Positions 7,605-18,769 of a DNA stretch of 64,000 nucleotides are shown one piece after another (within the stretch, counting starts at the first letter, position 1; each line of letters starts with the position of its first letter). The position numbers were made by a program, and so were the translations under genes. A model generated the notes under the pieces. The model saw nothing but the letters and a program-made list of their open reading frames with translations. It was not told where the DNA came from and searched no databases. The stretch comes from Polyangiaceae bacterium (GTDB lineage Bacteria; Myxococcota_A; Polyangia; Polyangiales; Polyangiaceae). The DNA lies in NCBI GenBank assembly GCA_013214025.1, contig JABSRN010000002.1, positions 124,001 through 188,000 of the forward strand, written 5' to 3'.

Positions 7605-8549
7605 CTAGCTGACGCGCTTCTTGCGGGATTTGCGCAGAGCTGTGCGCTTCGGGGGCTTGCGCGTTTTGCCAGTCGTGACCAAAATTTCCATCACATCTCC
7701 CCGGCCGTCCTTTTTGGAATTGATGCGGCGGGGGACGGGCACGAGATCCAATGGGAAGTCGTCGAACAATGAGCGGGTGAGCGGAGTGTTGGAGTTGCTC
7801 AGTACGGAACAGACGCCCCGCGAGCGGAGGGCGTCAAAACACTCGGCCAGTCGCTTGTGGGCCTCTTCGCCGAAAGCTTCGCGGTGGTAGGCGGTGAAGC
7901 TCGCCGTGTGCGAGAGCGGCACGTAGGGTGGATCGAAGTAGACGGCATCCCCCGCCCGGGCATCACGACATAGCTCCGAAAAATCCGCGACCTCCAGACT
8001 GACGCCTCGGAGTGCCCTGGAGGCGGCGCGCAGCCGTTCCGGATCGCAAATGGTCGGATTGACGTAACGTCCGAAGGGCACGTTGAACTGTCCCGAGCGG
8101 TTGACTCGGTAGAGGCCGTTGTAGCCGGTGCGGTTGAGGTAGATGAGCCTCGCAGCTCGTTCGTTCAAATCTAGATTGGCGGGTTTTAGCGCGCGGGCTG
8201 CGTAGTAGGTGTCCTTGTCGTACTCGTAGTGTTCGAGCAGTTGGATCACGCCTTTGGCCCCTCGGCGAAGGGCCCTATACACGTCGATCAGATCCTGGTT
8301 CTTGTCCGACAACACGGCACGCGAGAATCGCTTGTCGGCGGCGAGTGCGAAAAACACCGCGCCTCCCCCGATGAAGGGCTCGTAGTAGGTATCGATAGAC
8401 GCCGGCAGCCGCTCGAGGATCCGGGGCAACAGATGAGTCTTGCCCCCCGCCCATTTGAGCACCGGGCGCGGGGCCTTTCCTCCCGCTGACCGTGCCGTTG
8501 ACGGTCGGATATCGTGGGGTCGACTCGGTAGCGTGGTGGACTTGGGCAT
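7605..8549 (-). CDS. D12-class DNA adenine-N6 methyltransferase (Dam-like)
   Basis: 314 aa. It contains the ordered motifs of alpha-class (D12) N6-adenine methyltransferases: KWAGGKTHLLPRI (motif X) near residue 33, the AdoMet-binding YYEPFIGGGAVFFAL (motif I), the catalytic DPPY (in VYFDPPYVPLS), and YNGLYRVNRSGQFNVPFG, the Dam/DpnM substrate-binding block. The family methylates adenine, often in GATC. No restriction endonuclease gene is next to it, so it may be an orphan methylase. The C-terminus is very basic (about 20 residues rich in Lys/Arg). It ends 28 bp before the regulator gene. Confidence 0.93.
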   Translation of the reverse strand: MPKSTTLPSRPHDIRPSTARSAGGKAPRPVLKWAGGKTHLLPRILERLPASIDTYYEPFIGGGAVFFALAADKRFSRAVLSDKNQDLIDVYRALRRGAKGVIQLLEHYEYDKDTYYAARALKPANLDLNERAARLIYLNRTGYNGLYRVNRSGQFNVPFGRYVNPTICDPERLRAASRALRGVSLEVADFSELCRDARAGDAVYFDPPYVPLSHTASFTAYHREAFGEEAHKRLAECFDALRSRGVCSVLSNSNTPLTRSLFDDFPLDLVPVPRRINSKKDGRGDVMEILVTTGKTRKPPKRTALRKSRKKRVS

Positions 8550-12870: not shown

Positions 12871-13956
12871 CTATGGGTCCTGACATTCGTTCAGCAGTGC
12901 GCCTGCTCGGATCCATCCGCTGATTGTCCGCAGCTCCTGCAGATCGCCGAGGGCCAGGGGCGCGGGGGGCATGGGGGTGGCGTGTCCGAACCACTCGGAT
13001 AGCGACGCCCGTTGGGCGGCAGTGGGGGCAGCACATCCGCCGGCAGCCAGAGGCACTCGGTACTGGGTTTGGCAGGCGGTCGCCTCTGAGCCGTACGTGT
13101 CGCCAAGCAGCAGCTTGTATACGAGGTAACTGGTGTCGGGCCGGCCGGGCCAGATGACGGGCATCGCGATGCCAAAGCGCAGGGGATCGAGTTGGCTCTG
13201 CCCGACCACCGGCGCGTTGTCCGTTTGCACGGCAACGTGGCGAATCGCGCTGCCTGCGAGATCGCTGCCACTGGCGAGTCGAAGGCCCAGGGCGGCGCCT
13301 GCGCCAGCGTGGCAATCGCTGGCGGCGCAGCTTCGCTCATGAAAAATCTCCAGCACATCGCGGCAGCTCGGGGCAGGGTCTGCGGCTGGCACGGCTTCGG
13401 CTGCGCTGCCCGTGTAAAAGCCGAATTCCAGAGGCACCTCGCCCGAGCTCAGCGCGGTACCGTCGATGGCACGGAACCCATTGTCGGCTTCATCGATCGG
13501 GAGATGCACATCTACGTGATAGAGCCTATTGGATTCCCATTGGAAACCGGCGGGCAGGTGATAGCTAACGACCCGCTCGAGGGGATCGTATTCAGGGTGG
13601 AGCAGCACGTATGCCTGCTCGTTGGGCACATACACACGAAGCTCTTCGGGATCAGCTAGCCCATCCTGGGGCGGCTGGGGAAGCAGGTAGCCACCACTGC
13701 CGCTGTACACGCGAATGGACTGACGGACTGCCGTGCGCGGCAGCAGAAAACGGTCGAAGCGGAGCTCGATGACGGCGTTCAGTGGAACGCCACAGGTCAC
13801 GTCGCCGGATGGACAATCGTAACCGTCCCCGGCTGCCGGATAGCTAGCGAGCAGTCTCAGGGACGGCGGGTCGTTGCCTACCGGGGCCGCAAGATCGCAG
13901 CCAGTGGATAGCGCCACGCCCCCAGCAAAGGTTACCCAAGCGATCGCCCGCGACAC
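12871..13956 (-). CDS. lipoprotein with CX4CH haem-like motif
   Basis: 361 aa from the GTG at 13956, chosen because it gives a lipoprotein signal at once: IAWVTFAGGVALSTGC with lipobox LSTGC. A longer frame reaches 14373 but overlaps the small gene upstream. The N-terminal half (LNAVIELRFDRFLLPRTAV ... YVLLHPEYDPLERVVSYHLP) resembles Ig-like beta domains of surface proteins. The C-terminal half begins EIFHERSCAASDCHAG, a CX4CH motif found in cytochrome-like modules of myxobacterial and planctomycete surface proteins, and contains further paired Cys. It ends the operon started by the beta-barrel and multihaem genes. Haem binding is possible, not shown. Confidence 0.72.
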   Translation of the reverse strand: MSRAIAWVTFAGGVALSTGCDLAAPVGNDPPSLRLLASYPAAGDGYDCPSGDVTCGVPLNAVIELRFDRFLLPRTAVRQSIRVYSGSGGYLLPQPPQDGLADPEELRVYVPNEQAYVLLHPEYDPLERVVSYHLPAGFQWESNRLYHVDVHLPIDEADNGFRAIDGTALSSGEVPLEFGFYTGSAAEAVPAADPAPSCRDVLEIFHERSCAASDCHAGAGAALGLRLASGSDLAGSAIRHVAVQTDNAPVVGQSQLDPLRFGIAMPVIWPGRPDTSYLVYKLLLGDTYGSEATACQTQYRVPLAAGGCAAPTAAQRASLSEWFGHATPMPPAPLALGDLQELRTISGWIRAGALLNECQDP

Positions 13957-14003
13957 CGCGTTGGAGCGTTGTCGAAGGTCGGTCGAGAGGCTGGGCTGAG
14001 GGA

Positions 14004-14258
14004 TCAGCTGCCGGCGTAGATCTTCAACTGGTCGCCGACGGAATCGTCCGTGACTCCCTGAGAGATATTCTCTTTGAGACAGTCGGCTAGGACCAGCAAC
14101 ATGTCGTCGATCCCTTTGTCCTCGATGATCTTGGACAGGACCCGGCGGGCGTCCCGACTGTCGTCCTCCCGGAGGAATCCACGGATAGTCTCGACAGAGA
14201 CATCCCCTTGAAAATCCAGGTAAAGATTGTCGAGCAAGTAACGAGCGAGCTCCTTCAC
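14004..14258 (-). CDS. small protein of unknown function (84 aa)
   Basis: The start GTG at 14258 follows a perfect AAGGAGG 6-8 bp upstream, which fixes it; an ATG further upstream at 14315 lacks this. 84 aa, acidic, helical, without signal peptide or Cys: it begins VKELARYLLDNLYLDFQGDV, continues through SRDARRVLSKIIEDKGID and ends with DDSVGDQLKIYAGS. It lies between the 13-haem cytochrome and the CX4CH lipoprotein on the same strand. It looks cytoplasmic, so it is not an obvious part of the conduit. No family was recognised. Confidence 0.75.
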   Translation of the reverse strand: MKELARYLLDNLYLDFQGDVSVETIRGFLREDDSRDARRVLSKIIEDKGIDDMLLVLADCLKENISQGVTDDSVGDQLKIYAGS

Positions 14259-14360
14259 GGAAGGCCTCCTTAAGGCAAGCCGGACACTTCCGGGCAGGCC
14301 ATGGCCTATACTCATGTGAGGGTGATTCTCGCAAGAAGATATCGGTTTGCCCCGGCGATT

Positions 14361-15869
14361 TCATCGGCCACAACTGTATAAGTGTGAGTCATCGGGGCTG
14401 TGGCAACTCAGGCAGGCCCGTCGGTTCTTCTTCCAGGCTGTAGAACAGCGAGAGAGAAATCCGGCTCTATGGGGATTCACGCCAACTGTTCCGTTTCGCC
14501 CGCTCCCGCCCACCAGCCGGCTGGAATGGCACTGCACGCAGTCTCGTTCCGTGTGGCAGCTGATACAGGCGCTCAGATTGCGGCTCGCCTGGGTGCCGTG
14601 GTGCTTCATGGTCTTTGGACCGTTGGTCCAAACTTCCGGTGGCGGATGAAAGCTGCCCCGGGCCACCACGGAGCCAGGGCCGGTTTCGCTCTGTCCGGCG
14701 CGCTGGTGGCAGCTCACGCAAAATGACTGGGCACGATGGCACGTCCCGCAGCTCTGGGGATCTTGCTGGGCGCCCATGGCGTGCAGGTTCAGCCAGTCGT
14801 TGGGGTGAACGTTCCTCGGTCGTAGCCGGCCGTCGTGGCACGCCACACATTCGTTCTGTTGATGGCAGTTGGCACACAGGGCGCTGTCGGCTGCGGCCAC
14901 CTCGGCGTGATGCATGGCGAAGTCGGCGCCGTGCTGAGCGCCGCCCAACCAAGGGGGGGGCAGTAGGCTTCCCGAATCAAACTTCGTGATCAGCGTGTCC
15001 CCGCGACTCAGATGGCAAGTGGGGCAGGCGCCCTTCGCCTCACCGCGGTTGGCAGCCGGCGCGTGGTGACAATCCAAGCAACGCTGCATGCGCGGCATCT
15101 GAGCTCTAGTGGCCAGACCCACTTGCCGAAGGTCCCCGTGACACTGAGCGCAGGCGATGTTTCGCTGGAAATGTTTGTTATGAGAGAACTTGAGATTCGG
15201 CGTTGGGATAAATGTCCGCTTCGTTAGAGCGCCTGACGCGGTGGTGCCGCCGACATGACAGTCAGCGCAAGGCATCGTGGTGCTGGCATCCTTTGCAGAC
15301 TCGCTGATTCCCACTCCGCCAGCTGGCTCATCTTGGCCTCCGCTATCGGAAGTTCTCGGACCGCCGGCGTCGGCATTCGCTATCGGGGAGTTCTTTTGGG
15401 TTTGTGTCGTCGTCTGGGACGCGGCTGGTGTTGTCGGCATGACCCGGCGCACGACCCGGGCATTCAACGAGCTGTGATCTGATTCATGGCAGCCGTCACA
15501 AACAAGAGGCGAGGGAAGCAAACGATCTGCACTCTTGTTCGAACTCTTGGCGCGTTGATGACAATCCAGACACTTCATCTCCAATTCGACCAGGTGCTGT
15601 CGATGATCGAAACGAAGAGCCAGTCGCTGAGGTGGGAAGATGGCTTCGCTTGGGAATGGATCACCGTGGGCTCCGGGCGGGAGCGCGGGGGGGCGGGGAG
15701 AGCTGGCGGCAGCCACAACGCCCGAGACATTCGGTTGGGGAGCGGAGACAGTTGGCGACGCTGTGGAACCGGCAGGCTGAGCTTTGCCGGCGGCGAGAGG
15801 CGGCATGCCGAGGGCACACAATACGCTGACCACGCAGGTGAGCAGCAGCAGCGGGGTGAGGCGGCTCAT
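14361..15869 (-). CDS. 13-haem c-type cytochrome
   Basis: 502 aa with an N-terminal signal peptide (LTPLLLLTCVVSVLCALGMPP). I count 13 CxxCH motifs: CLDCH, CDGCH, CADCH, CAQCH, CLDCH, CPTCH, CANCH, CVACH, CGTCH, CVSCH, CISCH, CVQCH, CLSCH. Many extra His residues (FSHNKHF, MHHAEV, MKHHGT) could be distal ligands. A ~100-residue Ser/Thr/Ala-rich stretch separates the first two haem sites from the rest. Its ATG overlaps the stop of the upstream beta-barrel gene, so they are probably co-translated. It likely carries electrons in the periplasm or across the outer membrane. Confidence 0.93.
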   Translation of the reverse strand: MSRLTPLLLLTCVVSVLCALGMPPLAAGKAQPAGSTASPTVSAPQPNVSGVVAAASSPRPPALPPGAHGDPFPSEAIFPPQRLALRFDHRQHLVELEMKCLDCHQRAKSSNKSADRLLPSPLVCDGCHESDHSSLNARVVRRVMPTTPAASQTTTQTQKNSPIANADAGGPRTSDSGGQDEPAGGVGISESAKDASTTMPCADCHVGGTTASGALTKRTFIPTPNLKFSHNKHFQRNIACAQCHGDLRQVGLATRAQMPRMQRCLDCHHAPAANRGEAKGACPTCHLSRGDTLITKFDSGSLLPPPWLGGAQHGADFAMHHAEVAAADSALCANCHQQNECVACHDGRLRPRNVHPNDWLNLHAMGAQQDPQSCGTCHRAQSFCVSCHQRAGQSETGPGSVVARGSFHPPPEVWTNGPKTMKHHGTQASRNLSACISCHTERDCVQCHSSRLVGGSGRNGTVGVNPHRAGFLSRCSTAWKKNRRACLSCHSPDDSHLYSCGR

Positions 15870-17368
15870 CGGACCACCGCTAAATCGAGCAGAGCGACTA
15901 CACGAAAACGATGGCCCACAAGCGGATTGATGGCGTGGTCGAATTCCAAACGTAGGGACGTCTCCGGCAGGGCGCGGGCTTCGACCCCGAGCATATAGGA
16001 ATAACTATTCCAGTCCGGATGTCGACTCAGTTCATCCTGGGTACGGAAGGCGGAGAACCGAGCGAGAACGCTGGCGGTTTCGTCCCAGATCGAACGATCG
16101 GCGCTGAGCCCCGCGCCCATCTGTTGACGGAGGGCTCCGCTGAATCCAGAGACACGAATGCGGGCTGTGCCGTGGGCGTGCTGGAGTCGAGTGGTGACCT
16201 CAAACAGAGGCGCCATATCAAACTTGTCACGGCCGTTTTCATCGCGCCCGCCAAAGCGTCGCACCCCCGTGCGGGTAGCGGCGAGGAGTCTTCGATTGAT
16301 TTCCCAGCTGCTACGGATCGCCGCATCGTGGGTCGGAAATTGCGCGAACCAGTTGAAGATGGAGTCGCCGTCAAAGCTGGGCAGGTAGTACTCGTAGCTC
16401 GCTCCCACGGTCAGGGTCGGTGCCGGCAGGGCGTCGACTTCGACGGAGGCTTCAGCGAGTCGACTGGCGTAGAGATCGTACATGGCGACACTGCGCGCAT
16501 TGCCCACATTTTGCCAGCTGGCGCGGGCAGAGCCGCCGATCCGTTGACTGGCGGTGCGCGCACTCGAGAGGGTCACGAAGGGCCCGTTCGGTGCCGGCAG
16601 GATGGCCGTCACCACCTCGCTTCTCGAGATCACGTGGCGATATGCCAGTCGCCCCGACACCGGTAGATCGGACGGAGTCTCGACCGCAAAGCCGTAGGCC
16701 GGAGCCACCTTCTCGTCGTCGAGGTACTCGGGCCACAAATTTGCCGGCATGCCCTCGCGGTCCCCCCGGAGCACACCGTCCGCGCTGTATCGCGCTGACG
16801 AAAAGCCGGGCGCCCCCACTCGCGGCTCCAGTCCGCCGAGGGCCTCCAGTCGCAGATACGGTAGGGGTGAAAGTCGCAGCCAGGCGCCGTCGAAGGACCA
16901 GAAGCCGAGAGCATCGATTTGCAACTGTCGGCCCAGTCTCGCGTTCAGATGCCCCCCCAGCAGGCGTCGGGCCTCCAGGTAGGCGACGATGAGGTCGACG
17001 GGAGCTTGTTCCAGGCCCGGTACGTAGGCTCCGGTTTGCTCGGGATTTCTCTCAGCGTTTCTTTGGCCGGTGTCGGCGTCCAAACGGATTCGCGCGACAA
17101 CTCCGAGACTGGGCTCGTCTGTGTCGAAATCGCCCTGGAGGTTCTCCGCTACGAAACCCAAGGAGCTGGTCTGCCGTCGTCGCTGCACGATCACTCCGCC
17201 GGGAGAGCCGACGTCATACAACTGCATTTGGTGCTCGGCCTGGATCCAGGCGCTGTACCCGTGGGCGGGTAGGCTGATGAGTCCCCCCGCCGAGCCGAGC
17301 AGGATTGCTGCAAGGGCTGCCGTTCGTTTGGGCGCCTTCGTCGGTCCGGTCTCTGAGGGGCGGGGCAC
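15866..17368 (-). CDS. putative outer-membrane beta-barrel partner of the cytochrome
   Basis: 500 aa. The signal peptide is near residues 14-38 (AALAAILLGSAGGLISLPAHG), followed by YSAWIQAEHQMQLYDV. The rest is rich in alternating polar and hydrophobic stretches with Arg, Tyr and Trp, as in transmembrane strands: YLRLEALGGLEPRVGAPGF, LTVGASYEYYLPSF, RLEFDHAINPLVGHRF. There are no CxxCH motifs. The last residues are hydrophobic (VALLDLAVVR). The following gene, a 13-haem cytochrome, overlaps its stop, which is the arrangement of porin-cytochrome conduits (MtrB/MtrA in Shewanella). No similarity to MtrB could be tested. Confidence 0.7.
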   Translation of the reverse strand: MPRPSETGPTKAPKRTAALAAILLGSAGGLISLPAHGYSAWIQAEHQMQLYDVGSPGGVIVQRRRQTSSLGFVAENLQGDFDTDEPSLGVVARIRLDADTGQRNAERNPEQTGAYVPGLEQAPVDLIVAYLEARRLLGGHLNARLGRQLQIDALGFWSFDGAWLRLSPLPYLRLEALGGLEPRVGAPGFSSARYSADGVLRGDREGMPANLWPEYLDDEKVAPAYGFAVETPSDLPVSGRLAYRHVISRSEVVTAILPAPNGPFVTLSSARTASQRIGGSARASWQNVGNARSVAMYDLYASRLAEASVEVDALPAPTLTVGASYEYYLPSFDGDSIFNWFAQFPTHDAAIRSSWEINRRLLAATRTGVRRFGGRDENGRDKFDMAPLFEVTTRLQHAHGTARIRVSGFSGALRQQMGAGLSADRSIWDETASVLARFSAFRTQDELSRHPDWNSYSYMLGVEARALPETSLRLEFDHAINPLVGHRFRVVALLDLAVVR

Positions 17369-17479: not shown

Positions 17480-18769
17480 CTACGGAAATACTCCGCGGTC
17501 CGCGTAGGTGGCCATCAGCCGCTCCAGGGCGACGGCGTAGCAGGCGGTGCGGTAGTTGCAGTCGCGGTCGGCGGCGAAATCGTGCATGCGCCGGAAGGCG
17601 TCTTTCATGGCGATCTCCAGCTTGTTTTCCACGTCGGCTGCGGTCCAGCGTTGAGCGCTGCGGTTTTGGACCCACTCGTAGTAGCTCACGGTCACGCCGC
17701 CGGCGTTGCACAACAGATCGGGCAGGACATGCACCCCGCGTCTCTCGAGTTCTTGCTCGCCGGCGAGAGTGCAGGGCGCGTTGGCGGCCTCCACGACCAG
17801 TTCGACCTTCAGCAGGCGGGCTTCGGCTTCGTCCACTTGATGCTCCAAGGCTGCCGGGATGAAGATGTCCGCCTCGGTGCCGAAAAAGTCGTTTCGGCTG
17901 ATCTCTTCGGCATTCCTGTAGCCTTTGATTGAACCGTTGGCGATGACGTACTGCTGCAAGCGGTGCGTGTTGAAGCCTTCCGGATTCTTGTAGTAGCCGC
18001 TGTGATCTCCGACGGCGACCAGAGAGACGCCGAGCCCGCCCAGTAGCACCGACGCGTTAGAGCCGACGTTGCCGTAGCCCTGCACGATCGAGCGTTTGCC
18101 TCGCAGTTCGAAGTGATTTCGCGATGCCCAGTCCACGATGCAATGCACGACGCCTTGACCGGTAGCGCTGACTCGCCCGTGCGTGCCGCCACTGGTGATC
18201 GGTTTGCCCGTCACCACGGCTGAGACGGTTTGTTTGGTGACCACCCCCGTGGTGTTCATATAGGTGTCCATCGCCCAAGCCATAGTTTGCGGGCTGGTAC
18301 CCATGTCGGTGGCAGGGATGTCGTAGTCGGGCCCGATATTCGAGCCGAGGGCATGAAAGAATCTACGGGTGATGTGCTCTAGCTCCTTGGGCGAGACGGA
18401 TCGCGGGTCGAACTTGATGCCCCCTTTGGCGCCACCGAAGGGGATATCCATCAGGGCGCATTTGTAGGTCATGAGGCTCGCCAAAGCCTTGAAGTGGTCC
18501 AATGAGCAGTCTGGATGAAATCGCATGCCGCCCTTGTAGGGGCCCAGGATGTTCGAATGTTGTACGCGGTAGCCCTTGAACATTCGGTACTCGCCGTTGT
18601 CCATGCGAACTGGGAAGTGCAACACCAGTGCGGTTTTCGGTTGGCTCAGAAAGGTGAGGACCGACGCGGGGGCATCAGCCAACACTCCGGCTCTGTCGAG
18701 GTAGGTTTGGACCAGCTTAAAGAAGCGGTCGCGGCTAGGGTCGGCGGGAGGGGCTAGAGAGTCGCTCAC
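17480..18769 (-). CDS. Glu/Leu/Phe/Val-type dehydrogenase (glutamate dehydrogenase)
   Basis: 429 aa, normal length for the family. N-terminal dimerisation/catalytic domain with YKGGMRFHPD and the catalytic-lysine motif PFGGAKGGIKFDP. The C-terminal NAD(P)-binding domain has GYGNVGSNAS (Rossmann, GxGxxG variant), the substrate region TDMGTSPQTMAWAMDTY and GRVSATGQGV. The enzyme interconverts glutamate and 2-oxoglutarate, or a branched amino acid and its keto acid; the substrate cannot be settled from the motifs. The gene lies 82 bp downstream of cdsA on the same strand. Confidence 0.93.
   Translation of the reverse strand: MSDSLAPPADPSRDRFFKLVQTYLDRAGVLADAPASVLTFLSQPKTALVLHFPVRMDNGEYRMFKGYRVQHSNILGPYKGGMRFHPDCSLDHFKALASLMTYKCALMDIPFGGAKGGIKFDPRSVSPKELEHITRRFFHALGSNIGPDYDIPATDMGTSPQTMAWAMDTYMNTTGVVTKQTVSAVVTGKPITSGGTHGRVSATGQGVVHCIVDWASRNHFELRGKRSIVQGYGNVGSNASVLLGGLGVSLVAVGDHSGYYKNPEGFNTHRLQQYVIANGSIKGYRNAEEISRNDFFGTEADIFIPAALEHQVDEAEARLLKVELVVEAANAPCTLAGEQELERRGVHVLPDLLCNAGGVTVSYYEWVQNRSAQRWTAADVENKLEIAMKDAFRRMHDFAADRDCNYRTACYAVALERLMATYADRGVFP

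Follow-up and report, generated by a model that had tools for sequence, protein, structure and literature searches.

A candidate porin-cytochrome electron conduit with a 13-haem cytochrome in the Polyangiaceae

Most of what is known about extracellular electron transfer comes from anaerobes that respire metals. Does a gene cluster in a bacterium of the Polyangiaceae encode an outer-membrane electron conduit, and if so, does it belong to one of the kinds already described? The cluster (positions 12871-17368, minus strand) lies in a window of 64,000 nt, by which we mean the whole stretch of DNA analysed (Polyangiaceae bacterium, GCA_013214025.1, contig JABSRN010000002.1, forward-strand positions 124,001 to 188,000). 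Its genes encode, in this order, a barrel protein, a cytochrome with 13 haem motifs, a small helical protein and a lipoprotein (Table 1). An earlier note on this DNA had compared them with the MtrCAB conduit; all four genes were found at the positions and in the order it gave, and the genes of the barrel candidate and the cytochrome overlap by exactly 4 bp, as it had stated, with the sequence ATGA. Our results favor reading the locus as a conduit of the porin-cytochrome kind that carries electrons across the outer membrane and whose lineage is separate from MtrAB, and we consider this probable.

Table 1. Coordinates of the features of the locus, in positions of the window.
Feature	Positions	Strand	Basis
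Predicted beta-barrel (porin-like), 500 aa, signal peptide, 22 predicted strands	15866..17368	-	AlphaFold2, structural match, homologs
13-haem c-type cytochrome, 502 aa, signal peptide	14361..15869	-	motifs, PF14522, ActA profile match
84-aa helical protein, no signal peptide	14004..14258	-	relatives at same place
Lipoprotein, most likely monohaem c-type: lipobox, Asp+2, Ig-like (Big_5) region, C-terminal cytochrome c domain	12871..13956	-	alignment A6
Haem motif CAASDCH (CX4CH) of the lipoprotein	13309..13329	-	same alignment column as relatives' CXXCH
Lipobox Cys and Asp at +2 of the lipoprotein	13894..13899	-	family count vs background
Kinase-GAF-sigma54 activator-Fis HTH regulator, 1389 aa	8578..12747	-	Pfam; long homolog in relatives' loci

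The barrel and the 13-haem cytochrome

As a functional class, porin-cytochrome conduits are recognized by a barrel gene beside the gene of a secreted multihaem cytochrome, and this is the arrangement found here, with the barrel identified by prediction. The AlphaFold2 model of the 500-aa protein (62 sequences) displays 22 long strands with a mean pLDDT of 85.6 and a pTM of 0.78; a 22-strand beta-barrel is thus predicted with good confidence, in agreement with the fold proposed in the earlier note. When the model was compared with known structures, MtrB of the Mtr complex (Z 15.1, rmsd 4.2, 368 residues) gave the lowest rmsd and the longest alignment among the matches listed, which also included ushers, OprD-type porins, siderophore receptors and mitochondrial porins. 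Foldseek placed OprD-type porins and ushers in its top ranks with low TM-scores, and this speaks to the barrel fold only. These matches to the model support a barrel, but should not be taken to demonstrate an MtrB function. Neither Pfam nor NCBIfam yielded a match for the protein, and its relatives showed only weak generic barrel matches. The search against MtrB and PioB families that the earlier note had recommended gave no match to the MtrB_PioB profile (PF11854) in the window protein, in 61 relatives or in the whole genome, a result that should be interpreted mainly with respect to the barrel family itself because the control genomes were matched only once, and weakly. Of the 98 Polyangiaceae genomes searched, 85 have a homolog of the barrel, complete Sorangium cellulosum genomes among them, and the barrel profile matched in 110/377 Myxococcota genomes.

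The cytochrome contains the 13 CxxCH motifs that had been claimed for it; when its residues were shuffled 20,000 times, 0.10 motifs arose on average and at most 3. All 13 are conserved in 68 aligned sequences, partly by selection since these rows were picked for having 13 motifs. The same alignment revealed 13 further conserved histidines (12 at 100%, one at 99%), which played no part in the choice of rows, and whose number is as expected from sequence if all 13 haems are bis-His coordinated. The protein matches the cytochrome c7 family (PF14522, E 7e-19), and its N-terminal half is homologous to ActA of alternative complex III (PDB profile match, E 3e-15); its PDB profile matches are of this c7/ActA type and not to MtrA. 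In the structural comparison the moderate model (pLDDT 66, pTM 0.53) found partial matches, to ActA at a Z of about 5.5, and since even ActA was matched only partially the lack of MtrA there is no evidence. Profile matches to the cytochrome occurred in 143/359 Myxococcota genomes, including those of the second clade described below. One family (f38) holds a shorter version with 7 haems that corresponds to the C-terminal half only and still lies beside a barrel (L170, L171, L175, L176, L178), as well as 13-haem forms (L177, L193).

ActA itself is a pentahaem protein encoded next to other Act genes, whereas the window cytochrome carries 13 haems and is encoded next to a barrel. The true ActA of this genome is found elsewhere, with 5 haem motifs, beside NrfD and ActD genes of an alternative complex III and with no barrel partner. 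A search with the NrfD_2 family was uninformative, as it gave no matches anywhere, controls included.

Linkage, lineage and known conduits

The association of barrel and cytochrome was consistent across the phylum. Within the same family the barrel, cytochrome, small protein and lipoprotein follow in the same order in 20/20 neighbourhoods, and among 80 named relatives, all labelled Myxococcota or the older Deltaproteobacteria and some of them, such as Sorangium cellulosum and Minicystis rosea, represented by complete genomes, nearly all whose contig extends far enough have the four genes. In the distant neighbourhoods the barrel gene directly adjoins the cytochrome gene in 20/20 (13 haems in 18, 7 haems in two), so that adjacency of the pair was unbroken in all 40. 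The expectation that the conduit genes would be linked in related genomes therefore held for barrel and cytochrome everywhere examined; it failed for the lipoprotein in 18 genomes of other families, where its gene lies far from the cytochrome gene or on another contig, yet co-occurs with it.

Weaker cytochrome matches form a second clade (clade II; loci including L179, L181 and L185-L191), mostly of about 346-372 aa with 11-14 haems, and these are also encoded beside barrels. Further cytochromes with 8-16 or 23-34 motifs lie nearby in 9/13 of these loci, and judged from gene content the layout of clade II is that of the three-part Pcc conduits. The clade of the window cytochrome and clade II split as sister clades with support of 100/99, and some genomes of the window's family carry both. 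Together, the homology to clade II and the well-supported split place the window pair as a homolog of the three-part conduit core but in a separate, distinct lineage within the porin-cytochrome superfamily, as far as sequence comparison can tell.

The Pcc conduits (OmbB-OmaB-OmcB of Geobacter, and those of Anaeromyxobacter) likewise combine a porin gene with that of a periplasmic multihaem cytochrome. The window differs from them in having a 502-aa cytochrome with 13 haems (its relatives range from about 370 to 510 aa), in belonging to a clade other than the phylum's Pcc-like clade II, and in carrying a lipoprotein with one haem motif where Pcc has a 12-haem outer cytochrome; multihaem partners are found at clade II loci. 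Pcc is set apart here by description, homology of the window pair having been shown to the Pcc-like clade II of Myxococcota genomes only. The two-gene clusters reported from Anaeromyxobacter in 2014 consist of a porin and a 12-14-haem cytochrome of 338-344 aa, and nothing more (PMC4245776). MtrCAB, MtoAB and PioAB also pair a barrel with a multihaem cytochrome, and the structural comparison matched the window barrel to MtrB, among others; however, this barrel lacks an MtrB_PioB match and has 22 predicted strands as opposed to 26, the cytochrome has 13 haems with c7/ActA profile matches as opposed to the 10 haems of the MtrA type, and there is no outer decahaem cytochrome. The MtrCAB parallel of the earlier note consequently stands as a functional likeness, a barrel with a multihaem cytochrome, but the MtrB/PioB profile finds no match and the lipoprotein may not be an outer one. 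PCC3 and PCC4 of iron oxidisers are again composed of a porin and multihaem cytochromes, PCC4 without an extracellular cytochrome, but PCC3 porins have up to 42 strands, and both systems carry a five-helix inner membrane protein, which was not seen in the window cluster (PMC5566968).

Porin-cytochrome conduits are a known kind, and the pair here is a distinct 13-haem lineage, spread through the phylum, with a monohaem lipoprotein and no multihaem outer partner at the locus. The porin-cytochrome systems of the phylum have so far been described mainly from Anaeromyxobacter, and a search of open-access papers turned up no account of a Myxococcota conduit with 13 haems. The earlier statement that such systems are little described in the phylum was in this sense roughly right, although it passed over the two-gene clusters of 2014 (PMC4245776).

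The lipoprotein and the neighbouring genes

The most likely start of the lipoprotein gene is GTG 13956 (361 aa) and not 14373, in agreement with relatives. Its CAASDCH motif is present as claimed, and a C(X2 or X4)CH motif arises by chance in fewer than 1% of shuffles of the protein. The haem site recurs in 67/71 family sequences, as CX4CH in 42, CX2CH in 24 and CX3CH in one, with no motif in four; C210, C215 and H216 are invariant in the family alignment, and conserved Met-Pro stretches could supply a sixth haem ligand. With one invariant haem site and candidate sixth ligands, the lipoprotein is most likely a monohaem c-type protein. Its C-terminal domain showed weak cytochrome c matches, and Big_5 and PSCyt1 matched 21/38 and 6/38 members, respectively, all at weak E-values.

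Among 164 genomes of the order, the lipoprotein was present in 112 of the 116 that bear the cytochrome (Fisher p 4e-35, a significance inflated by shared ancestry, which the test ignores). The four exceptions are genomes of 64-88% completeness, and the reverse situation, lipoprotein without cytochrome, occurred in a single case with a weak partial match. Because co-occurrence holds even where the two genes are unlinked, it argues for a shared role of lipoprotein and cytochrome.

The family is further characterized by aspartate at position +2 after the lipobox cysteine, present in 56/59 members with a called lipobox, compared with 2/82 other lipobox proteins from the same loci; the alignment in Table 1 was picked for Cys-Asp and was left out of this count. 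In E. coli Asp+2 is the classical inner-membrane retention signal for lipoproteins, the inner-membrane signal reported for Myxococcus xanthus is Lys+2 and not Asp+2, and in Klebsiella PulA Asp+2 is required for type II export to the surface (PMC3222651). The lipoprotein had been taken for the outer component of the conduit; it carries a single haem motif, and the nearly invariant Asp+2, for what it indicates, favors an inner-membrane location. We therefore lean towards the view that it may be an inner-membrane electron donor and not an analogue of MtrC.

For the small protein the most likely start codon is GTG 14258, preceded by AAGGAGG; this gives 84 aa, the length of many relatives, and the protein shares 47-66% identity with 20 relatives at the same place. 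It was considered as a part of the conduit and dropped, since it is class-wide (105/144 genomes, mostly single-copy) and often unlinked to the conduit genes elsewhere in the genome; its distribution indicates that it is probably not a conduit component. In several other families it adjoins the lipoprotein gene, also at a distance from the genes of barrel and cytochrome, and for this reason the two form a second module. The regulator listed in Table 1 lies downstream of the lipoprotein gene, and in about 18 related loci a long homolog of it does so too. This recurrence suggests that expression is regulated, with the regulator as a candidate for control of the locus. A gene for a D12-class N6-adenine DNA methyltransferase (7605-8549) follows downstream of the regulator. 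The glutamate dehydrogenase gene upstream of the locus (17480-18769) was left out of the locus because it recurs in about 10/80 named loci and not generally. Elsewhere in the genome (L197, 856-2835) we noted a 659-aa protein with 7 CxxCH motifs, a lipobox-like start and a weak NapC/NirT match.

A possible electron path and its alternatives

We propose that the cytochrome would be held in the barrel, forming a continuous chain of haems across the outer membrane by which carriers in the periplasm could exchange electrons with something outside the cell. The part that crosses the membrane is probably the C-terminal half with its 7 haems, since one family's version keeps only that half together with the barrel, and the N-terminal ActA-like half with 6 haems would reach into the periplasm. 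The lipoprotein would then probably be a periplasm-facing carrier on the inner membrane that links the quinol pool to the 13-haem wire; the alternative complex III of this genome provides a route from quinol to the periplasm. As to direction, outward flow seems the likelier, with Fe(III), humics or an extracellular reductase as acceptor, but this is a guess. The host groups with named isolates (Sorangium, Polyangium and Minicystis) are aerobic, and respiration outside the cell is not established for them, which counts against the conduit reading.

The same conduit could be built with a surface-exposed lipoprotein that acts as the terminal electron exchanger, a reduced functional stand-in for MtrC or OmcB, exported for instance by a PulA-like type II route. 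Such a surface position would accommodate the near-perfect co-occurrence with the cytochrome, the operon shared with the pair in Polyangiaceae, and the need for Asp+2 in PulA surface export (PMC3222651). However, a single haem offers little contact surface, Asp+2 is a retention signal in E. coli, and many loci of distant relatives have the barrel-cytochrome pair with no clear lipoprotein, so that we regard this arrangement as unlikely. It is in our opinion improbable that the conduit serves a surface reductase or oxidase encoded elsewhere in place of minerals, in the manner of DmsEF with DMSO reductase: a weak similarity to the DmsE profile (E 0.0012, far below the DmsE cut-off) and conservation in soil aerobes whose genomes are large and encode many secreted enzymes would be in keeping with it, but a non-exhaustive look at the neighbours found no recurring enzyme gene at the locus.

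A further view dispenses with the complex altogether, and treats the barrel as an ordinary porin and the cytochrome as a soluble periplasmic electron store. The barrel does also match OprD-type porins and ushers, and the insertion of the cytochrome is something that we infer; yet the adjacency of the two genes is never broken in 40 neighbourhoods and clade II homologs of both stand with outer multihaem cytochromes, which leaves this view very unlikely. Returning to the conduit, its broadest version would be a separate class found throughout the phylum and used by predominantly aerobic predatory and soil myxobacteria, in which the 13-haem wire is itself the surface contact, a monohaem lipoprotein tethered to the inner membrane feeds that wire, and a single small set of genes, with no multihaem outer cytochrome, bridges both membranes. 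We advance this version tentatively and consider it doubtful.

That a single site of the lipoprotein is CX4CH in some relatives and CXXCH in others amounts to a natural experiment on haem attachment, and cultured strains are open to testing (Sorangium cellulosum So ce26, Polyangium fumosum DSM 14668 and Minicystis rosea DSM 24000). If a conduit of this kind is standard in Polyangiaceae, electron exchange with the surroundings may be a capacity of a large group of predators and degraders in soil.
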